Assembly: GCA_022567695.1 (NCBI GenBank)
Contig: JADFGN010000011.1
Span: forward strand, 1-34,695
Direction: 5' to 3'
DNA: 34,695 nucleotides
DNA from: Candidatus Poribacteria bacterium
Lineage (GTDB): Bacteria > Poribacteria > WGA-4E > PCPOR2b
Each line of letters begins with the position of its first letter. The stretch's first letter is position 1. Below, one piece after another: positions 1 to 34,695 of the stretch. The notes beneath the pieces are model-generated. The model had not been told where the DNA came from. It did no database searches and was given only the letters and a program-made list of their open reading frames with translations. The position numbers were made by a program, and so were the translations under genes.

Positions 1-46
1 TCAAGCGAGTCGCGATTTGGCTTCAAACCCGCTTGAGGATTGAATC

Positions 47-66
47 CTTATATCGAACTGACGTTA
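47..66. repeat. Right end of inverted-repeat element family B
   Basis: The 20 bases here match, with one difference, the right terminal repeat of the nested element at 2618-2788. The left end of this copy is not visible, so it is either outside the window or lost. The preceding bases contain a small inverted repeat (positions 1-7 and 31-37) that may be element interior. Nothing in 1-218 looks coding. A CCTTCGGGTGG-type motif near 100-110 recurs at about 4485 and 4987. Confidence 0.55.
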
Positions 67-218
67 TTTAGACATTTTTCTGCCCAAAGAAAACGGGCCC
101 TTCGGGTGGTCCGAAGAACGGAGTACACCTCACGCAAAACGAGAAAACGTGAGAGAAGCGGCTCTCAGCGTTATATTGGAAGTCTTTACATTTTATCAAT
201 TTAATTTTGTCTAGGCAC

Positions 219-325
219 TTAACTAATTTTCGATTGAAGATTGAAGATTGAAGATTAGAAAAACCCGCATCAATGCTACCATTGACGAATCAGGAATGTA
301 TAGTTTTTTATTGAAAATTAGTTAA
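219..325. repeat. MITE-like element, family A, copy 1
   Basis: A perfect 13-bp terminal inverted repeat, TTAACTAATTTTC at 219-231 and its complement at 313-325, encloses about 80 bp with no coding capacity. The ends can be read as TA target duplications flanking ACTAATTTTC repeats, as in IS630/Tc1-type MITEs; this is an inference. Inside, three copies of the heptamer GATTGAA plus a partial one lie at about 232-256. The element ends five bases before the start codon of the next gene, so it may supply part of that gene's leader. Confidence 0.7.
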
Positions 326-330
326 AGGCC

Positions 331-1239
331 ATGCGAAAAACGAAACGACTTTTGCCATTTATCGGGTTAGTCCTTCTAACTGCTATTCTGGCTCGGTATA
401 TCAACTTCAGCCACCTAATCAACCTTCGTCAACAAGCCGAGGGAAAAGTCCTTGGAGTGGCAGTCGCTTTGACGATTCCATTTCTGCTCTGCAAAGCACT
501 CAAGTGGTACTATCTACTCCGAACAAGCATTCCCAACGTCTCCTATGTATCGGCGCTACGTTCCTTTTTGATTGGCATGGCAGCCAGTCTTTTTACTCCA
601 GCCCGCCTCGGTGAACTCGCAAGGGTTGCATGCTTCCCGAGCCAGCGCTTCTCAGTGCTGGGGTTAGTCATGGTTGATAAATTGGTTGATATAGGGATAT
701 TGCTGGGTTTATTCGTACTAAGTTTTCTCGTCTTTTCACCGTGGCTGGGTTTAACAGGTGTTCTAGCTGGAGGGGTGTTGGTTTTTGGGCTATCGGTGCT
801 TTTACGGTCAACGCACTGGGTAACTCGAATACCACAGCCGACATGGTTGACTGAAGTATGGCGCGGATTGCGCAACCAGCCTCGACGATTAATCACCTTA
901 AACGCTAGTCTAACTTGCCTCTGTTTTGGATGCATGATGCTACAATTCCAGCTGTTTCTCTCGAGTCTGCAATCGGTTTCATGGTGGGCTGGCCTAATGC
1001 TTCCAATTATCCTACTGGTAAGCAGTGCTCCCGTTTCAATATCAGGACTGGGTCTCCGCGAAGGGATTACGGTGCTGCTCTTAAGTCGTTATGCGGTCTC
1101 AATTGAGACCGCAATCGCTGTGTCGCTATCTGTTTTTGCTGTGACCTCTTTGCTTCCGGGTCTAATCGGCTTGCTTTTGTCGCCGACATTGATCAAGCTC
1201 CGTCCTCAAGACATTCATCCTCCAAAAGAGTTCAGTTAA
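331..1239 (+). CDS. Lysylphosphatidylglycerol synthase TM-region/flippase-like membrane protein
   Basis: A 302-residue polytopic membrane protein with about seven or eight hydrophobic segments. The pattern resembles the UPF0104/LPG_synthase_TM family (PF03706; AglD/MprF flippase-like). Family features visible are the basic-aromatic stretch after the second helix (KALKWYYLL), the conserved loop SLFTPARLGELAR at about residues 86-98, and VMVDKLVDIG at about 113-122, followed by the APVSISGLGLREG region at about 234-246. Members are thought to translocate lipids or lipid-linked sugars across the inner membrane; the substrate cannot be read here. There is only a weak ribosome site (AAAGG) close to the ATG, and a family A repeat lies immediately upstream. 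The gene stands alone in front of decayed secretion genes. Confidence 0.75.
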   Translation: MRKTKRLLPFIGLVLLTAILARYINFSHLINLRQQAEGKVLGVAVALTIPFLLCKALKWYYLLRTSIPNVSYVSALRSFLIGMAASLFTPARLGELARVACFPSQRFSVLGLVMVDKLVDIGILLGLFVLSFLVFSPWLGLTGVLAGGVLVFGLSVLLRSTHWVTRIPQPTWLTEVWRGLRNQPRRLITLNASLTCLCFGCMMLQFQLFLSSLQSVSWWAGLMLPIILLVSSAPVSISGLGLREGITVLLLSRYAVSIETAIAVSLSVFAVTSLLPGLIGLLLSPTLIKLRPQDIHPPKEFS

Positions 1240-1272
1240 CTGAAATGCTAAATACAAAAGGATACTTGCGTA

Positions 1273-1449
1273 ATGCCTCATAAATGGATTGTTCTTATAA
1301 TTCCGATTGTTGCTATCGGTGTGTTTTCAATCAACGCGATTACGCAAGCCCAACGTCCAGATCGAGGGGAAATGCGTAGCAGGCAAGGGAGGGGAAGCCA
1401 AAGTGGTTCAAGCGGGGGACAGAGGCTGTCCTTTGTTGGTGATTCATAG
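1273..1449 (+). CDS. Small secreted protein, possibly a truncated gene start
   Basis: A 58-codon reading frame beginning MPHKWIVLIIPIVAIG with a clear signal-peptide-like hydrophobic segment (residues 5-20) and a likely cleavage after TQA (residues 24-26). The mature part is short, Arg/Gly/Ser rich and ends at a TAG. An AAGGA stretch lies about nine bases before the ATG. The abrupt low-complexity tail, and the neighbouring gene being a transposon-truncated secretion-type gene, suggest this may be the front of a larger envelope protein cut short by a stop or frameshift. No family was recognised. Confidence 0.45.
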   Translation: MPHKWIVLIIPIVAIGVFSINAITQAQRPDRGEMRSRQGRGSQSGSSGGQRLSFVGDS

Positions 1450-1483
1450 ATCGATATCACTTTAGGAACAATAAAAGAAACAT

Positions 1484-2257
1484 ATGAAACGGCAATTGAC
1501 ATTTACCATATTTATTATCGGTTGTTGTTTGTTGTTATCAATGTCCCTCTTGAGGTTAGAGCACAACCTTTATGCCCGAAACGAAACCGATGAAAAAGCA
1601 CCACAGATTTATAGCACTCAGAACCCATCGACTTCCCTCCGCCCGCGCTTGGAAACTTCGCCTCCGGCCAATCTTCGAGAATACTATCAGGTTATTGTTG
1701 AAAACAACCTGTTCCCCTTTGCCAAGCTCGCCAACTGCATGCTCCACGCTACTTTTAAATTGCCCGCCCAAATCAAAGAGGTGGCTAAGACGGTACGCCA
1801 AACGCTCTGTTGTCAGTTTAGCCGACTGTTTTTCGTCCAAACAGCTCGCCAAACCACGAACAACCGCTCGTTCGGGCAACGGTTGCGACGCTTCGTTGAA
1901 CAGGTCCGGCGCCTCGCGGGAGAAGACAATGGAAGTCGGGTGAGGAGGTGGATAGAGCGGAAAAAGGCGGGCTGGCACGTCCTGTTTGCGGATGCCAACA
2001 TTCCCAAAACGACCACGCCAATCGACCAGATCCACAATGCGATAGACCGGAAGCTGTTTATGATGAAAGGGTTTCATCACGAAGATGGCAGCCAACGGGT
2101 TTTCCTCAATGGTTTTGCGATCTTGGCGAACTTGATTCCTTACCAGCGGCGAGCAATAAATGGGGGGAAGTGTGCGATACAGGTGGAAGGGGGAAAGGTA
2201 CCGACCAAGGATTGGTTCCTCAATCTCCAGATCCTGACTAGCGGCGGGTTTCAGTGA
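1484..2257 (+). pseudogene. GspC/PilP-like N-terminus fused in frame to a transposase C-terminal remnant
   Basis: The 257-residue frame has two unlike halves. Residues 1-77 have a short cytoplasmic start, one membrane helix (residues 5-23), a low-complexity linker and the motif YYQVIVENNLF, which resembles the start of the periplasmic region of GspC/PilP-type secretion or pilus proteins, where a conserved Phe-Arg-Pro normally follows. From about base 1715 the sequence changes to a basic, transposase-like protein. Its end (residues about 185-257: PIDQIHNAIDRKLFMMKGFHH, then PYQRRA and LNLQILTSGGFQ) looks like the C-terminal helix region of a DDE transposase. I infer that a transposon inserted at this point and that both genes are now remnants. 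The antisense 236-codon frame is taken to be a shadow. Confidence 0.5.
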
Positions 2258-2259
2258 CT

Positions 2260-2412
2260 TTACCACTTAATTCGATGGAATGTGAGAATTTGTTCCCGAT
2301 TCTCAACGAACTGTCGTGAACATTCGTTGCAATAGTGATTCTGCTTGCCATTGTGAATATGGCCATTCTTTTTGGTATTCGTGCTGTCACAGGTGGGACA
2401 ACATATACTCAT
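2260..2412 (-). pseudogene. IS1-family InsA-like zinc-ribbon fragment
   Basis: A 50-codon minus-strand frame whose N-terminus reads MSICCPTCDSTNTKKNGH, then YCNECSRQFVEN. The two CxxC pairs and the KNG and RQFVEN blocks are characteristic of the zinc ribbon at the start of IS1-family (InsA/InsB) transposases. The protein stops after about 50 residues, where the helix-turn-helix and DDE domain should follow, so it is a truncated relic. Upstream, on the minus strand, CCAAGGAGA gives a usable ribosome site. It lies tail-to-tail, two bases apart, with the end of the plus-strand transposase remnant, so the locus holds debris from at least two different elements. Confidence 0.7.
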
Positions 2413-2595
2413 GGTTAGTCTCCTTGGTTATTTCGGACATGTCACAGAGGATAACCAAGATTCGTAAATGTGTCAATCACATTTGACAGCATTACATGTA
2501 GCGCACCACCCATTTCAAAACCTCCATAAGTTGTTGTTGAGTTACCGTTCTCATTGCACGAACCGTCGAGATCGGGTTATCCACCCCAAAACACA
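2413..2595. other. Non-coding flank of IS debris
   Basis: No credible gene was found. A GGTTAT...ATAACC inverted repeat lies at about 2433-2458. This stretch may include the outer end of the truncated IS1-like element, but a terminal repeat could not be paired because the other end is missing. Confidence 0.3.
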
Positions 2596-2617
2596 TAACT
2601 AAATTTCTCTATTAAAG

Positions 2618-2788
2618 TAACGTGAGTTCGACGTAAGAAGTCAGTGTGGTGACTGGTATCTGGTGACTGGTGACCAGACTACCAGACTACCAGACGACAA
2701 GACAACAATGGTCGAAGCGCCGCAAAAACACCCGTCACCCCGTACAAAACCGCTTGCGCACCTACATCCTTATATCGAACTCACGTTA
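2618..2788. repeat. Nested inverted-repeat element, family B
   Basis: The ends TAACGTGAGTTCGACGTAAG (2618-2637) and CTTATATCGAACTCACGTTA (2769-2788) are inverted repeats matching at 18 of 20 positions, with the outer 14 perfect. TTAAAG occurs on both sides (2612-2617 and 2786-2791) and fits a target duplication. A related end is present at 47-66. The interior carries short tandem repeats and no gene. Confidence 0.7.
2648..2707. repeat. Short tandem repeats (7-mer then 8-mer)
   Basis: Four near-identical heptamers (GGTGACT, GGTATCT, GGTGACT, GGTGACC) at 2648-2675 are followed directly by four near-identical octamers (AGACTACC twice, AGACGACA, AGACAACA) at 2676-2707. They lie inside the nested element and resemble the short tandemly repeated repetitive sequences described from cyanobacteria. 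Confidence 0.7.
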
Positions 2789-2940
2789 AAGTATATATTT
2801 CAAACTACGGGAACCGCATGATTTGCGGCGCCCCGACCATTACTGATTTCTTTCGGGAACTCATTCATGAAAATTAGTTAAGTGAAAAACTTATCAATAT
2901 TCAATAATACTCAACCATGCACGATGTGTCATCTTGAGCA

Positions 2941-2962
2941 GGAGTCGAGCCCGGAGACGAGT
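2941..2962 (-). repeat. 22-bp segment shared with two other repeats, site 1
   Basis: The reverse complement of this 22-base segment is identical to 27126-27147 and 31728-31749. The core CTCCGGGCTCGACTCC is easy to recognise. Here it sits at the outer edge of the hairpin-rich repeat that precedes flgB. Confidence 0.8.
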
Positions 2963-2995
2963 AAAAGGTCTTGTTTTGGCCGTACCTGAAAGATT

Positions 2996-3062
2996 CTTCA
3001 CGAAGCCTGTCCGTAGCCTGTCCTCGAATCCTTCACTTCGTTCGAGGACAGGCTTCGTGAAG
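2996..3062. repeat. Perfect 17-bp inverted repeat upstream of flgB
   Basis: CTTCACGAAGCCTGTCC at 2996-3012 is the exact reverse complement of 3046-3062, leaving a 33-base loop that contains a smaller CGAA...TTCG palindrome. The surrounding bases (about 2925-3095, starting with TCATCTTGAGC and ending with CCAGAATGACAT) look like a dispersed intergenic repeat. The stem would form a strong RNA or DNA hairpin about 70 bases before flgB. Confidence 0.7.
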
Positions 3063-3133
3063 GAAACGCAGTGAAGGGTCCAGAATGACATTTTGTGAAC
3101 TACTGATATTAAAATGTGAGGAGGACATCGAAT

Positions 3134-3574
3134 ATGTCTCGACTCTTCGACACCACTATGCGAGTTTTGGAAACTGGAATCGAAGGCAGGAAGCTGAAAC
3201 ACCAAATCATCGTGAACAACCTTGCAAATGTCGATACGCCGGGGTTCCAAAGCAGTGATCTGAAATTTGAAGAGGCGTTGGGAAGAGAATTGCGACCACC
3301 GAATCCAAATCCACCGCGAAATTTTGAGGAACGGATTGAACGTCTTGCAAACAAAAAATTCCAAGTCGGGATTAAAAACCGCGTGCCGTCCAATCAACTC
3401 AAGGCCACCATCGTCGCCGAAGCACACGATCAGCCGCGTCTGGATGGAAATACGGTTGATATTGATCGCGAAATGATCAAGCTCACAAAGAACACTCTTC
3501 TTCACAACGCTTACATCGAACTACTGAATCGCAAGTTTAGTCTTCTCAAAATCGCAATTAGCAGAAACGGATAA
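3134..3574 (+). CDS. flgB: Flagellar basal-body rod protein FlgB
   Basis: A 146-residue protein starting MSRLFDTTM. The N-terminal rod motif NNLANVDTPGFQSSDLKFEEAL (about residues 31-52) is the signature shared by FlgB, FlgC, FlgF and FlgG, and the length fits FlgB. The C-terminal region (DIDREMIKLTKNTLLHNAYIELLNRKF) is the coiled-coil half of the rod fold. FlgB forms the proximal rod of the flagellar motor in the periplasm and is exported by the flagellar type III system. I prefer this ATG over an in-frame GTG at 3116 because GAGGAGG lies eight bases upstream. It is the first gene of a flgB-flgC-fliE set and is preceded by several repeats instead of another flagellar gene. Confidence 0.93.
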   Translation: MSRLFDTTMRVLETGIEGRKLKHQIIVNNLANVDTPGFQSSDLKFEEALGRELRPPNPNPPRNFEERIERLANKKFQVGIKNRVPSNQLKATIVAEAHDQPRLDGNTVDIDREMIKLTKNTLLHNAYIELLNRKFSLLKIAISRNG

Positions 3575-3598
3575 CCGTCCAGAGGAAGGTAAAAACAG

Positions 3599-4069
3599 AT
3601 GGAATTAACACTCTTTACGGCAATGGAAACTAGCATGTCCGGTTTGAAAGCACAACGTTATCGGATGAACATCATCGCCGAAAACCTTGCCAATGTACAC
3701 ACCACACACACAGATACAGGCGATCCCTATCGTCGCAAGGAAGTTCTTTTTGCGACAAAGGATGCGATACCAATCTTTGAAGATATTCCCAATAAAGCGT
3801 TTGAAAAATATCTCCGTCTCACCAACGCCTTTAGCTATTCCAGAGGTGTATACGTCACCGGGGTCATCGAAGATGAAACACCATTCCGCGAAGTTTATGA
3901 CCCAGGACACCCAGATGCCAACGAAAAGGGAATTGTTCGACTGCCAAATGTAAATCCACTGATCGAGATGGTTAATATGATGTCCACCGCCAGATCTTAT
4001 GAATCCAACATTACCGCGATAAATTCTGCTAAGAGAATGGCACAAAAGGCTCTCGAAATTGGAAACTAA
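3599..4069 (+). CDS. flgC: Flagellar basal-body rod protein FlgC
   Basis: A 156-residue proximal rod protein. The N-terminus has the rod motif AENLANVHTTHTDTGDPYRR (about residues 27-46), the FlgC-type HTDTGDPYRRKEV extension and a DPGHPDANEKG block before the conserved end VNPLIEMVNMMSTARSYESN (about 117-136). That end forms the C-terminal helix packing in the rod. The gene follows flgB by 24 bases, with AGGAAGG as ribosome site, so co-transcription is very likely. It stacks on FlgB between the MS ring and the distal rod. Confidence 0.94.
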   Translation: MELTLFTAMETSMSGLKAQRYRMNIIAENLANVHTTHTDTGDPYRRKEVLFATKDAIPIFEDIPNKAFEKYLRLTNAFSYSRGVYVTGVIEDETPFREVYDPGHPDANEKGIVRLPNVNPLIEMVNMMSTARSYESNITAINSAKRMAQKALEIGN

Positions 4070-4123
4070 AATAAAAAATTGCAATTCGTCCCATAGCTTC
4101 ATCATTAGGGAGACGTACTGAAA

Positions 4124-4438
4124 ATGAACATACAACGTACCTTAAAATCCATCGCATCACAGCCAACACAATCCAAGAAAAGTTTGGATCAAAGTCCGAA
4201 GGAACAAAACGCAGACGAACCGTCCTTCACGGAAACCTTGAAGGAATCTATTGCTGATGTTAATCGCTTACAAAAGGAGGCGGATCAGGCAATTGAATCA
4301 TTTGTGGTTGGCAAAACGAAAGATATTGCTCAGACAATGGTTGCCGTTGAAAAGGCAAATATCTCTTTTCAATTGATGACGCAAGTCCGCAACCGCATCC
4401 TTGAAGCGTATCAAGAAGTCATGCGTATGCAACAATGA
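4124..4438 (+). CDS. fliE: Flagellar hook-basal body complex protein FliE
   Basis: A 104-residue protein with a disordered polar N-terminus and the conserved helical core. The core carries SFTETLKESIADVNRLQKEAD, then DIAQTMVAVEKANISFQLMTQVRNRILEAYQEVMRM at the C-terminus, which is the FliE signature. FliE links the MS ring protein FliF to the rod. The gene sits 54 bases after flgC with GGGAGAC ahead of its ATG. In many bacteria fliF, fliG and the export genes come next. Here a family A repeat begins three bases after the TGA and no further flagellar gene follows in the window. Confidence 0.92.
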   Translation: MNIQRTLKSIASQPTQSKKSLDQSPKEQNADEPSFTETLKESIADVNRLQKEADQAIESFVVGKTKDIAQTMVAVEKANISFQLMTQVRNRILEAYQEVMRMQQ

Positions 4439-4441
4439 TGT

Positions 4442-4536
4442 TAAGTAAATTTCTCTATTAACGTATATATTTCAAACCACATGCCCTTCGGGTGGGAAGG
4501 CAGACCTTGCAGGAACTTATTCCCGAAAATTAGTTA
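4442..4536. repeat. MITE-like element, family A, copy 3
   Basis: This 95-bp element starts TAAGTAAATTTCTCTATTAA and ends GAAAATTAGTTA, in the same orientation as copy 2 at 2596-2880. It begins three bases after the fliE stop codon. The interior contains CCCTTCGGGTGGGAAGG and a GACCTTGC segment also echoed in other intergenic repeats. It has no coding capacity. Confidence 0.7.
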
Positions 4537-4820
4537 AACGTTTGGGCATAGTTCAGAACCTCGTGATTCTTGCCGTCTCAAGCATCGGATAGAGCGTATT
4601 GCTCATGAGACAATCTGAATTAAGCAAAAATTGTGACCGAAGGAAATCCCGTTGGAGCCGTCATAACCCATGCTATCGCTGCATCCGGCGTACGATTATC
4701 CGTTGATTTTGAAGTTTAGGTCAGCGACATCGCTTTTGTCATTATAATCCCCAAAAAATTCTACCTTCCTATGACCGATCGATGTGACATTTCATCGCAC
4801 TTTCTTGAGGAAAGCCTGCC
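4537..4820. other. Intergenic stretch with no convincing gene
   Basis: Only short open stretches are present, about 30 codons on the plus strand from about 4632 and 17 on the minus strand at about 4600. None has a ribosome site with a recognisable protein. It could contain decayed coding sequence, but nothing can be named. Confidence 0.4.
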
Positions 4821-4936
4821 TAACTAATTTTCAGTATTAAAGTCAATATTTTATGGAGTGAAAAACTTGTTTTGCAGAGATTGAGCAAACAAGTCACCCA
4901 CTCCAAAATGTATAGTTTATTCATCAAAATTAGTTA
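4821..4936. repeat. MITE-like element, family A, copy 4
   Basis: The terminal inverted repeats TAACTAATTTT (4821-4831) and AAAATTAGTTA (4926-4936) are perfect over 11 bp. The 116-bp interior is itself a long imperfect palindrome (GGAGTG...CACTCC, AAACTTGTTT...AAACAAGT), so the whole element could fold as one hairpin. The segment ATGTATAGTTT near its right end is shared with copy 1. Confidence 0.75.
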
Positions 4937-4955
4937 CTCAACGGCAGAGGTTTTT

Positions 4956-5073
4956 GGACAGTAGGTCGAGATTCTGATCTCGACTTACCTTCGGGTGGTG
5001 GGAAGCCTTTCAGGTGGGAGGAAGAACCTCATGCAAACCCAACACATTTTGGAAAATCGACCTACAACTGTCC
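4956..5073. repeat. Palindromic intergenic repeat upstream of the histidine kinase
   Basis: GGACAGTAGGTCGA at 4956-4969 pairs with TCGACCTACAACTGTCC at 5057-5073 with a three-base bulge. A second hairpin, GTCGAGATTCTGATCTCGAC, lies at the left arm, and CCTTCGGGTGG appears at about 4987. No gene is seen up to the kinase start. Confidence 0.6.
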
Positions 5074-5227
5074 ACATATTTACGCCGCGCTGTACTAGAA
5101 TGCCCACTTTTGATACGTTTCCAGTATGATGCGTAGTAGCGCTGTACAAAGACAAGATGACATTTTTCGAGCCACCTGCTCGATAGAAGCGCTCATATTG
5201 AAAAAATATAAAACCGGAGAAACAGAG

Positions 5228-6496
5228 ATGGCTGATATTGTCAAAGCAAATGCATCCAAGGAGATCACTTTACAAAAATCAGCGGGACTCGAATCGGACG
5301 TGGCCGACATCATGGCCACACATCCACTCCATAAGGTGGACAATTCAGCGCTGATCGAAGAGTTAATCAAGTTGATAACTGTGGAGGGGAATCGCCTATT
5401 GGATGGAGAAAGTGTTCCCTCGGACTCGACGGTCGGAGTCGAATCGCGCAACGCTGATCGGATAGGAGAACTTCTCATCAAGGAAGGGTGGGTTCATCAA
5501 GATGATATCCAGAAAGCAGTGCAAGAGCAGAATATGGGCGATCCACGGCACATTGGGGAGATTCTCGTGGAGCAGGGCGCCATACGGCCACAGCAGGTCA
5601 TCGAAGCACTAAACCGCCAGAAAGAAATCCGACTTTTGAAGGGATTGTACATAGAAGCTCAGGCGTCACTGCAAGAAAAAGAGATGCTGCTCAAGGAACT
5701 CCAACGAGCCAAAGAAAATGCTGAAGCCGCCAACCGTGCGAAGAGTGAATTCCTCGCCAATATGAGCCATGAGCTTAGAACGCCGATGAATGCGATTATC
5801 GGCTTTTCGGAACTCCTTGAAGATCAGGTATTTGGCAAACTGAACGATAAACAGAAAAGATATGTCGATCATATCCTTAAAGGTGGACGTCACCTGCTTC
5901 AACTGATTAACGATCTTCTCGACTTGTCGAAAATCGAAGCGGGACGTATGGAACTGCACTTGTCATCGTTTGATGTCACCGATGCGATATCCGATGCCGT
6001 GAACATCATCAAGCCGCTGGCTGACAAAAAGCGTATTGCACTCAACGTTTCTGTTGAATCAGACTTGCCTATTCTCATCGCCGACGAAACAAAGTTCAAG
6101 CAGATTCTCTACAACCTTCTCAGCAATGCCATTAAGTTCACTCCGGATGCGGGAAATGTGAAGATAACAGCGATCTCGATTTCAAAACCCGCTGCCATCG
6201 AGGTCTCTGTCTCTGATACGGGTATCGGTATAAACCCCGAAGATCAACGCCGCATCTTTAATGTATTTGAACAAGTGGACGCTTCGTATTCCCGTCATCA
6301 GCAGGGGACAGGTCTTGGACTGACATTGACCCGACAACTGGTCCAGATGCAGGGGGGCAGAATCTGGGTGGAAAGCGAAGGTGAGGGGAAGGGCAGCACT
6401 TTCACCTTTATCATACCATTGAGTAATAAAATTGAAACACGGCACACAGGAATGCAGCGGGGCCCGCTACGTGATAAAATAATAAATGCAAGGTGA
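5228..6496 (+). CDS. Histidine kinase with tandem MshEN-like sensory repeats
   Basis: A soluble 422-residue sensor kinase with no membrane segment. Residues 78-101 (RIGELLIKEGWVHQDDIQ..Q) and 108-131 (HIGEILVEQGAIRPQQV..Q) are two 24-residue units matching the xxGxxLxxxGxIxxxxVxxAxxxQ pattern of the MshEN/GspE N-terminal domain, which binds c-di-GMP. A coiled coil (about 140-172) leads to the HisKA motif MSHELRTPMNAIIGF with phosphorylatable His181. The HATPase domain follows, with Asn300 in LLSNAIKF, DTGIG (330-334) and GTGLGL (360-365). The start at 5228 is chosen because GGAGA lies seven bases upstream; an in-frame ATG at 5126 would add 34 unlikely residues. It is followed by two response regulators. 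Ligand binding is inferred only from the repeat pattern. Confidence 0.88.
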   Translation: MADIVKANASKEITLQKSAGLESDVADIMATHPLHKVDNSALIEELIKLITVEGNRLLDGESVPSDSTVGVESRNADRIGELLIKEGWVHQDDIQKAVQEQNMGDPRHIGEILVEQGAIRPQQVIEALNRQKEIRLLKGLYIEAQASLQEKEMLLKELQRAKENAEAANRAKSEFLANMSHELRTPMNAIIGFSELLEDQVFGKLNDKQKRYVDHILKGGRHLLQLINDLLDLSKIEAGRMELHLSSFDVTDAISDAVNIIKPLADKKRIALNVSVESDLPILIADETKFKQILYNLLSNAIKFTPDAGNVKITAISISKPAAIEVSVSDTGIGINPEDQRRIFNVFEQVDASYSRHQQGTGLGLTLTRQLVQMQGGRIWVESEGEGKGSTFTFIIPLSNKIETRHTGMQRGPLRDKIINAR

Positions 6497-6547
6497 TATC
6501 AATCGAAAAACAAGATCGATTCGTATAAAACTGAGGAAAGCAAAAAC

Positions 6548-6931
6548 ATGACCGGAAAAAAAATCTTGATCATCGAGGACAATTTGGCAAACATGGAACT
6601 GATAACGGACTTACTGGAAATCGCCCGTTACGTCGTCCTTCAGGCAGAGACAGCCGAAGAGGGAATCGCGTTGGCAAAAGCGGAATCTCCCGACCTGATT
6701 CTTATGGACATTGCCCTGCCGGGGATGGATGGCCTGAGCGCAACGCGGATTCTGAAACAGGAGGCAAAAACTAAGAATACCTCCATCATTGCTCTGACCT
6801 CCTACGCAATGGAGCGTGACAAAGAGGAAGCGTTAGCAGCGGGTTGTGAGACGTACATGACGAAGCCGATTGACACGCGGGAATTCCCTTTGGCAATCGC
6901 ACATTTCATTGAATCTGCCTCAGAAGCATAA
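6548..6931 (+). CDS. Single-domain response regulator (CheY/DivK-like)
   Basis: A 127-residue stand-alone receiver. The acidic pair Glu10-Asp11 (IIEDN), phospho-acceptor Asp54 (LMDIALPGMDG), Thr84 (ALTSYAM) and Lys106 (TKPID) are all present, so it should accept phosphate. There is no output domain, so it acts by protein-protein contact, like DivK or CheY. It lies 51 bases after the kinase, with an AGGAAAG ribosome site, and 23 bases before the next regulator. The three genes likely form one phosphorelay operon, with this protein as a direct target of His181 or as a shuttle. Confidence 0.92.
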   Translation: MTGKKILIIEDNLANMELITDLLEIARYVVLQAETAEEGIALAKAESPDLILMDIALPGMDGLSATRILKQEAKTKNTSIIALTSYAMERDKEEALAAGCETYMTKPIDTREFPLAIAHFIESASEA

Positions 6932-6954
6932 CTGATCGTATAAGGAGAAATCAG

Positions 6955-8055
6955 ATGGAAAAAGAAGATATGCGTATTCTGCTCATCACCGATGAGAATC
7001 AGAACATAACTGAGGTAGTTGCTAGCCTGAAGTCAAAGGGATTTTCCCTGGAAGTGCCTGCCAATCCAGAAGCCGGTAGAGACGTCTTAAAAGGGTATAA
7101 ACCTCACGCGCTCCTACTCAGCTTCCATACATTTGAATTAACAGAAGTTTATCATCTAAGTCTTCAACAAGATGAAGGGTTGTCCACGATTTTCCTCTGT
7201 ACAATATCAGAAGTGGACAAAGCCTTCCGACTCTTGACAGCGGGAAAGATTAATGACTACTTTATCCTCAACCCCATATATGATCCAAACCGACTTTCGG
7301 TCTGTATCCAGCATATATTCAATAATCTAAAACTTCGTGAAGAATTGCGGGAGAGTCAAGAGAAAGAGAATTTCAATAAGAGTGCCCAATTACAAGCGGA
7401 GGCGGAGCAAGCTCAAATGAGACTGGTTCAAAGCATTGAGGAAAAGCTTGCTGAATTTGAAAAGAAAATGGCATCGTCTGAATTTAATGATGCGGTTGAA
7501 GTGAAAGATTTGAAGAAGTTAGCTCAACACTTTGATCATTTGAAAAACGAGGAATTTGAATCCGCCTTTGAAAGCTTTCAGGAGGAATCTCTTGATTCGT
7601 TTGACGGTTATTTTGGCGAGTTAAAAACGCTGTATCACAAAAGACTCCAGCGAGAACGAAGCCATATCCAAGAATCGCACAATAAAAAGTCTCCTTATTC
7701 TATTTTAGTCGTTGAAGACGATCCCCAAAGCATGGAATTGCTAGTGGAAATACTGGAAATAGAAGGATTTAAGGTCTACCAAGCTAGAAATGGGAAGATA
7801 GCCGCTATGCTGGTCTCAAAAAACCTACCAAACCTGATCTTAATGGATATTCAGATCCCCGGTATTGATGGTCTGAAATTAACCCAAAAATTGAAGAGAC
7901 ATCCCAAATTTAAGGACATTCCAATTGTGATGGTGACGGCACACACCTCACAGGCCATCCTCCAACAAAGCCTTAAGGTACGTGCTTCTGGTCTCATTGC
8001 CAAGCCGATTAGTCGTAAGGTCGTGTTGGATAAAATTCGAGAGTTTCTCAATTAA
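6955..8055 (+). CDS. Pseudo-receiver/coiled-coil/receiver regulator
   Basis: A 366-residue protein. Residues 6-122 have the alternating pattern of a receiver but lack its active site: Asp-Asp is replaced by ITDENQN, the phospho-site region reads LLLSFHTFE with Ser56, and the Lys position reads ILNPIYD. Residues about 125-240 are charged, Glu/Gln/Lys rich and predicted helical coiled coil. Residues 248-366 form a complete receiver with VVEDD (252-256), Asp298 (LMDIQIPGIDG), Thr328 and Lys350 (AKPIS). No DNA-binding or enzymatic output is visible, so it probably scaffolds or dimerises to bring the intact receiver to a partner. Its ATG follows AAGGAGA. It ends the kinase operon. Confidence 0.85.
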   Translation: MEKEDMRILLITDENQNITEVVASLKSKGFSLEVPANPEAGRDVLKGYKPHALLLSFHTFELTEVYHLSLQQDEGLSTIFLCTISEVDKAFRLLTAGKINDYFILNPIYDPNRLSVCIQHIFNNLKLREELRESQEKENFNKSAQLQAEAEQAQMRLVQSIEEKLAEFEKKMASSEFNDAVEVKDLKKLAQHFDHLKNEEFESAFESFQEESLDSFDGYFGELKTLYHKRLQRERSHIQESHNKKSPYSILVVEDDPQSMELLVEILEIEGFKVYQARNGKIAAMLVSKNLPNLILMDIQIPGIDGLKLTQKLKRHPKFKDIPIVMVTAHTSQAILQQSLKVRASGLIAKPISRKVVLDKIREFLN

Positions 8056-8191
8056 AAAAATACGACCATAATCCGGTTACGTCGTCATTTCCCTGTCACT
8101 CACCATTTGGGCAATGCTTACCAACGTGAGAGGGCAGTTTGTGTCGTTGCTAAATATACTCTCGGCGAGGGGTGAAGGTTAAGATCTCCAG

Positions 8192-9006
8192 CTATATTGC
8201 TTTGGCACTCTTCGGCTCGCCTTTCGGGAAAGCTTTAATGTATTGCTGGAGGGCAACTCGTAACCTAGGCGGAACCCGATCAAGATGACCCGGTGCAAGC
8301 ATCGCTTCCCGATCCGCACAGTCTTCCCACCAGACAGGGACATCGATCCGCCAAAAACCTGCAAACAACGTTCGACGCCATACACCGTCGGGATTCAAAC
8401 CACGATGCAAAAGGTTTCCGTGACGAAAGGCAATATCGCCTGGTTCTAATTCAATGGTAAGTTGGCCCGGCATGTCATCGTTTCGATCGTTCCTATATAC
8501 GGCGACCTCTTCCTCAGTCGCCGAACGAGCATGGCTGCCAGGAATAACTTGAAGAAATCGATCTCCCGGTTCCAGAGGTGCGTGGAATGAACACTGTCGC
8601 AACAGGTCGCGTTTAAGTACCAGACCTCAACCGGATGGTCAACATGGCAGTAGTCACGATGCCAGGGTGTTCTGTAGTGGTGCCCGTTACCCGAGGCTAG
8701 CATGGTAAGCCAACTGCAACGAGTCGACGCATCAAAGATGGCTTCTATAGTTGGTATAATATCAGCATCAAACCATTCTCCCAAGGCTGGCTGATATTCG
8801 TCAGGAGTTAGCATGTTGTTGACACTGACTGGTATCCGGCGTTCCTCATCCACCCATTTGAGTGGTCTCTTAAACTCGCCAGCGCGTGCCTTTTCAAGAA
8901 ATTGCTCAACGGCATCGACCAACGACTGCACACACTTTGCGTCGAAAGCTTGTCGAATAATAATTTTTTGCAGTGTTTTTCGGTGTTCATCGGTAATTGC
9001 ATTCAT
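8192..9006 (-). pseudogene. Phytanoyl-CoA dioxygenase (PhyH) family protein, frameshifted
   Basis: Two overlapping minus-strand frames together make one PhyH-type Fe(II)/2-oxoglutarate oxygenase of about 270 residues. The front part (start at 9006, after AGGAGAAT) carries the metal-binding His-x-Asp in TPWHRDYCHVDHP. The rear part carries FLQVIPGSH and the distal His/Arg region HGNLLHRGLNPDG. The reading frame shifts near 8612-8614, a TTT run on the plus strand. Adding one A on the coding strand would give WYLKRDLLRQCSFHAPLEPGD and restore a continuous protein. The family hydroxylates small organic substrates and is often expanded in Poribacteria. Either the base is missing from the assembly or the gene has recently been inactivated; all active-site motifs are intact. 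Confidence 0.8.
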
Positions 9007-30236: not shown

Positions 30237-30471
30237 CGACTTTTTCACTTAGGGACCTCTCCCCCTGCCCCTCTCCTGTGAGGATTCAGGGGCGGACAGT
30301 TTCATATTTGAAAACATGAAGGATCAGACGTAGAGCGAGCCGCTGGCTTGTTCATTGGCATTCTGAACGGGCGAGCCGCCCGCTCTACACCGAAGTGTCC
30401 GCCCCTGAACCTCGCAGGGAAGGGGGGGGGTTAGGTCTGACTGCATTCGGATGATAACTGAAAAACTCGTA
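30237..30471. repeat. Long palindromic element, family C, copy 2
   Basis: The outer ends GACTTTTTCACTTA and TAACTGAAAAACTCGTA match copy 1. Within are nested inverted repeats: CAGGGGCGGACA with TGTCCGCCCCTG, a CCCCTCTCC/GGGAAGGGG pair, and GTAGAGCG with CGCTCTAC around a loop. The whole 235 bp could fold as one extended hairpin. It starts three bases past the stop codon of the beta-barrel gene on the minus strand and has no coding capacity. Confidence 0.75.
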
Positions 30472-34178: not shown

Positions 34179-34695
34179 CTATTTCACAATTACCATTCGC
34201 CGCGTCTGGGTGTAATCACGAGCGACAAGGTGATAGATATAAATGCCACTCGCAAGGGGTTCTCCGAGATTATTTCGTCCATCCCAGTAAGCGGCTTTAT
34301 TCCGCTCAATATAATACCCCGCGGGTTTCTGCCCCACGTCCAGCATCCGAACTTGTTTCCCCTTGAGGTCGTAGATCTCGATTTGAACGGCGGCAACCTC
34401 TGCCAATTGATACGGTATCCACGTTTCAGGATTAAATGGATTGGGGTAATTCGGCAGCAGCTTGGTTTGATCAGGGATATGTTGCTTACGGAGTGTCGCG
34501 ATTCGTTGAGTCAGCCAACTCCGCAATGCCAACGTTCCTTTCGTCACGACGCCGTAGCGGTCGAGTGCATCGAGCATCCGTTGATAGAGTTGCAAGTCGA
34601 TTGTTACGTCGGGGTTAAACCCCGACGTATCTGCTACCGCCGGATGTTCGGGCGCAGCCGGCGGGGACAGATTACGGGACCGAAGCCAGTTTTCT
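34179..34695 (-). CDS. Secreted protein with C-terminal FlgD-Ig/sorting-type domain, partial
   Basis: The last 171 residues of a larger protein whose frame stays open to the right edge of the window, so the start is missing. The C-terminal domain (about 85 residues) begins LLPNYPNPFNPETWIPYQLA and continues VQIEIYDLKGKQVRMLDVG, AAYWDGRNNLGEPLASGIYIYHL and RRMVIVK. This matches the FlgD-Ig-like (PF13860) domain found at the ends of poribacterial and Bacteroidetes-type sorted proteins. The part before it (DVTIDLQLYQRMLDALDRYG) is a helical linker. No dockerin is visible in what remains. It is transcribed toward the cohesin-like lipoprotein, 71 bases before it, and a tandem repeat fills the gap. 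Confidence 0.88.
   Translation of the reverse strand, partial: ENWLRSRNLSPPAAPEHPAVADTSGFNPDVTIDLQLYQRMLDALDRYGVVTKGTLALRSWLTQRIATLRKQHIPDQTKLLPNYPNPFNPETWIPYQLAEVAAVQIEIYDLKGKQVRMLDVGQKPAGYYIERNKAAYWDGRNNLGEPLASGIYIYHLVARDYTQTRRMVIVK

Follow-up and report, generated by a model that had tools for sequence, protein, structure and literature searches.

The flagellar genes flgB, flgC and fliE of the Poribacteria MAG studied here form a three-gene unit apart from fliF. On the evidence of gene order this isolation is derived, because flagellated relatives keep flgB-flgC-fliE-fliF-fliG-fliH-fliI together. We consider the likely explanation to be a lineage-specific fission of the operon, in a MAG that is rich in repeats, and the insertion of a MITE into the non-coding spacer. 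Copies of one MITE family, family A, mark that spacer, and we found no evidence for them as the makers of the break. The window (the whole stretch of DNA analyzed, 34,695 nucleotides) is the entire contig C174 of a 7.3-Mb MAG that comprises 733 contigs, is 91% complete and has an estimated contamination of 6.68%. A comparison of FlgC showed Candidatus Poribacteria MAGs to be close relatives, and on this basis we treat the genome as poribacterial.

The three-gene unit and its repeats

FlgB and FlgC make up the proximal rod, and FliE connects the rod with the MS ring and the export gate. For FliE, the adaptor role is also described in a published account (PMC8546590). The products of all three genes scored above the curated NCBIfam equivalog cut-offs. 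As an earlier, sequence-only reading of this DNA had described, flgB, flgC and fliE lie between two same-orientation family A copies, the second of which begins 3 bp past the fliE stop; all three genes are intact (Table 1). That reading counted two family A copies, and both are present, but they belong to a total of four elements.

Table 1. Features of the flgB-flgC-fliE region, in window coordinates
Feature	Position	Strand	Remarks
Family A MITE, second subfamily	220..324	+	A TIRs
Probable insertion-sequence debris, 5' of flgB	1484..2412	.	ORF 1484-2257 (+) and a short minus-strand ORF
Family A MITE with nested family B element	2596..2880	+	A TIRs at both ends
Family B MITE, 171 bp, nested in A	2618..2788	+	Perfect 14-bp TIRs TAACGTGAGTTCGA...TCGAACTCACGTTA
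flgB, proximal rod protein	3134..3574	+	NCBIfam TIGR01396, 89.1 bits (cut-off 59.05)
flgC, proximal rod protein	3599..4069	+	TIGR01395, 159.4 bits (cut-off 102.1)
fliE, rod/MS-ring adaptor	4124..4438	+	Pfam FliE, 5.1e-29; TIGR00205, 93.9 bits (cut-off 30)
Family A MITE, diverged copy	4442..4536	+	Lies in the spacer where the ancestral operon would have continued into fliF
Family A MITE, second subfamily	4821..4936	+	A TIRs
Histidine kinase and two response-regulator genes, 3' of fliE	5126..8055	+	

The family A element measures 92 to 116 bp when free of nested insertions, carries a 12-bp TIR (TAACTAATTTTC) and is too short to code for a transposase of its own. The 285-bp copy upstream of flgB consists of an A element of about 111 bp and the 171-bp family B insert. 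Without the insert and one copy of AAG, it aligns with an element on contig C476 at 97.8% identity over aligned pairs, except for an 18-bp insertion. Since uninterrupted A copies read ATTAAAGTATATATTT at the insertion site, the family B insertion probably duplicated a 3-bp target, AAG; the alternative is a longer duplication with shorter TIRs. The copies that we inspected have TA at either end and, in many cases, TTAA; TIR and target duplication are inseparable without an empty site.

The two bracketing copies differ considerably from each other. Their alignment gave 73 identities, 9 mismatches and 42 gap positions, and the longest exact run that they have in common is 16 bp. Among the copies compared, the closest relative reached 97.8% identity over aligned pairs for the upstream copy versus 90.2% for the downstream copy. 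Their outer flanks, searched for a common target duplication, showed none.

The neighborhood on both sides of the unit was likewise characterized; the flanking genes are an LPG-synthase-like gene (331-1239) and the histidine kinase gene (5126-6496). The kinase and regulator genes 3' of fliE differ from the NtrB/NtrC-like pair found 5' of flgB in family f4. In the probable insertion-sequence debris, the short minus-strand ORF matched the InsA zinc-ribbon N-terminal domain weakly (E value = 0.0031, under the curated cut-off), and a Pfam search with the 257-amino-acid ORF at 1484-2257 returned no match. Read by eye, the latter ORF resembles an unrelated secreted-protein start fused to a transposase-like second half. 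Promoter and terminator scans of the window remained at about chance level, the A element 3' of fliE, in which a hairpin was sought, folded no better than its shuffles (z = 0.53), and window positions 1-9000 had no Rfam match. At the far end of the window, a minus-strand ORF (34179-34592) encodes FlgD Ig-like and Por secretion-tail domains; it resembles a C-terminal sorting domain and not flagellar FlgD.

Gene order in relatives and elsewhere in the MAG

The proposal that the operon had been cut is upheld by the relatives. In family f4 (L017, L018 and L019) and in L058, L063 and L069, which represent families more distant than f4, flgB-flgC-fliE-fliF-fliG-fliH-fliI is uninterrupted; fliF, rather than being far away in all relatives, directly follows fliE there, and does not do so here. 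On its short contig, L064 shows this order from flgC through fliH. The continuous order is thereby kept by flagellated relatives at order, class and phylum level. It is not universal: some f7 genomes have a cluster flgB-flgC-fliE-fliI plus a separate fliE with fliF and fliG.

The nearest orthologues of the window's genes are the f4 operons (L017/L035, L018/L030 and L019/L031), which hold orthologous genes in the same order, with protein identities of 61 to 67% for FlgC, 58 to 64% for FliE and about 70% for FliI. Whereas the f4 operons are continuous, the operon here is split 3' of fliE, is probably interrupted 3' of fliI by sensory genes and is split again between fliR and flhB. Both f4 genomes of genus g7 (G011 and G014; L020 and L021) have an additional, diverged flagellar cluster that includes a fliE, a fliG and a fliI of its own, and the contig that bears it also holds a second flhA. 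G011, G014 and G016 each gave 8 to 14 flagellin N-terminal matches, some of them in very long frames (up to 1,589 amino acids).

We searched 85 genomes of the phylum for FliE, and 15 were positive. Among the nine genomes of family f1 that were searched, fliE was found only in this MAG and flhA only in this MAG and G003, a distribution that suggests flagellum loss among most members of the family. Most of the genomes G001 to G008 are without fliE and flhA, including a single-contig genome that is 98% complete. The only other flagellated f1 genome found, G003, has flhA, hook and rod genes and flagellin; because fliE and fliF are both absent from its assembly, it cannot date the split.

The remaining flagellar genes lie on other contigs of the MAG. 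The window holds neither fliF nor fliG, as had been noted, and the assembly has a single fliF, which lies on C185 in the order fliF-fliG-fliH-fliI. The search for flhA, motA and motB was successful as well: C206 carries flhB, flhA and flhF, and C520 carries fliJ, a motE-like gene, fliK, flgD, flgE, motA, motB, fliL, fliM, fliN, a fliO-like gene, fliP, fliQ and fliR. Gene names on these two contigs rest mainly on gene order, similarity to G014 and a reading of the translations, with FliJ, MotA and MotB also compared with NCBIfam.

C185 begins within a high-copy family C repeat, and the view 5' of fliF stops at 612 bp. These 612 bp are non-flagellar DNA with B- and C-type repeats, and no family A end was found in them. 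Pieces of the B- and C-type repeats are what this flank shares with the window, the remainder being at chance level. Promoter-like matches numbered 5 (shuffle mean, 1.0), but the best overlaps the ribosome-binding region and was not relied on. Family C, the third high-copy repeat (end, AACTGAAAAACTCGT), occurs at window positions 30415-30471 and at L008:1-62, and several of its copies are close to contig ends.

A GAF-HisKA kinase frame runs open off the end of C185, and C520 starts with an open receiver-Hpt frame just 5' of fliJ. Because of these open frames, the two contigs are probably neighbors bridged by one hybrid kinase gene, an arrangement that would place sensory genes between fliI and fliJ. 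If the contigs adjoin, a response regulator and a hybrid histidine kinase (L008:6419-8155 and L140:1-664) appear to occupy this position. At the second break, fliR is followed on C520 by about 2.2 kb without a recognized gene, and flhB on C206 is preceded by a VWA gene, as in G003, and has no A end on its side; in G014, fliR adjoins flhB.

With 733 contigs, many repeats and 6.68% estimated contamination, the isolation of the unit might be ascribed to assembly or binning. We regard such an artefact as very improbable, since the spacer from the A copy to about position 4800 has no second copy that we found in the genome, the A copy 3' of fliE has no near-identical partner among the 40 of 182 candidates scored, the fliF contig independently has non-flagellar DNA 5' of fliF and both parts match one and the same f4 operon.

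Family A across genomes and the origin of the break

We counted family A copies as exact TIR ends (TAACTAATTTTC and its complement), with the reversed pattern as a control, and obtained 165 ends genome-wide versus 3 for the control. One A copy used as a query gave at least 42 matches (40 of 182 candidates scored). Numerous copies are identical or almost so, and from this family A looks to have been active recently. Across the 19 genomes searched, exact ends numbered 165 here, 26 in G003 and no more than 4 in any of the 17 others. The expansion coincides with the presence of flhA in the same two f1 genomes, which are too few to show a link. Because family A is so abundant (the window's first 5 kb hold four elements), its copies are no specific bracket. 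A 4.7-kb part of the window holds 5 exact ends (0.1 expected from the genome mean), and a comparable cluster on contig C208 has 6 exact ends per approximately 4 kb.

Some bacterial MITEs with short TIRs derive from IS630/Tc1-mariner elements. Family A resembles these in length, in its 12-bp TIRs, in its many scattered non-coding copies and in its terminal TA; an IS630 origin is a candidate only. Within the body of literature searched, no paper mentions Poribacteria together with miniature inverted-repeat elements.

The sequence-only reading had offered recombination between the repeats as a cause of the cut. In such a scenario, ectopic recombination between two A copies would have cut the operon, the copies would have diverged since and later insertions would have masked the reciprocal junction. 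An A copy does lie at the side of the breakpoint, immediately past fliE, and the family is abundant and apparently recently active. We nevertheless consider the scenario improbable. Among the strongest points against it are the 612 bp 5' of fliF without an A end, the best partner of the copy at 4442-4536, which is just 85% identical (40 of 182 candidates scored), and the A copies in the flgJ/flgM and flgK/flgL gaps of the C127 flagellar operon, which is unbroken. The short exact run common to the bracketing copies and the missing A end by flhB at the second break argue in the same direction. An old event with decayed traces would be compatible with all of these points. In G003, flgJ adjoins flgM, and no exact A end is present there. 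It is similarly doubtful that family A expansion fragmented the operon through repeat-mediated rearrangement as a step toward the absence of flagellar genes in other family members.

Alternatively, flgB, flgC and fliE may have moved as a unit into an unrelated locus, either on an insertion sequence or as a segment with MITEs at its borders. Both neighbors of the unit are unlike those in f4, with the NtrB/NtrC-like regulators missing upstream and fliF missing downstream, and probable insertion-sequence debris lies 5' of flgB; but the A copies are too unlike to have formed the two termini of a single recent composite element, their outer flanks have no target duplication in common and a relocation of the fliF side is equally possible. 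We judge such a move unlikely. A composite transposon likewise has genes flanked by two same-orientation repeats, as the three genes are here, but it requires near-identical flanking elements, and we rejected it on the divergence of the window's repeats and the lack of a common outer target duplication.

A probable operon fission and its possible consequences

Under the fission that we favor, the ancestral Poribacteria operon would have read regulators-flgB-flgC-fliE-fliF-fliG-fliH-fliI-fliJ-...-fliR-flhB-flhA-flhF, and the break between fliE and fliF would have arisen in the lineage of this MAG, leaving the flgB-flgC-fliE unit and placing fliF-fliG-fliH-fliI at a separate locus. Family A MITEs would have multiplied in the lineage and, presumably after the split, entered non-coding DNA on both sides of the unit as they did other intergenic spacers. 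Against this reading stands the density of family A around the unit, which exceeds the genome mean; the 612-bp limit of the view 5' of fliF, the number of contigs and the estimated contamination are further caveats.

Operon fission and MITE insertion are each already well known. What this case adds is a MITE family specific to the lineage, many of whose copies are nearly identical, together with a caution: repeats at the end of an operon are weak evidence for the mechanism of a break when the same repeats occur genome-wide. For the organism, a working flagellum is plausible because flagellin, hook, motor and export genes were all found in the genome, and both units may be expressed and still build it. 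The derived split is documented in a flagellar operon that is conserved among relatives, in a phylum in which most genomes searched are without fliE, and it would uncouple transcription of the rod-adaptor genes from that of the MS ring.
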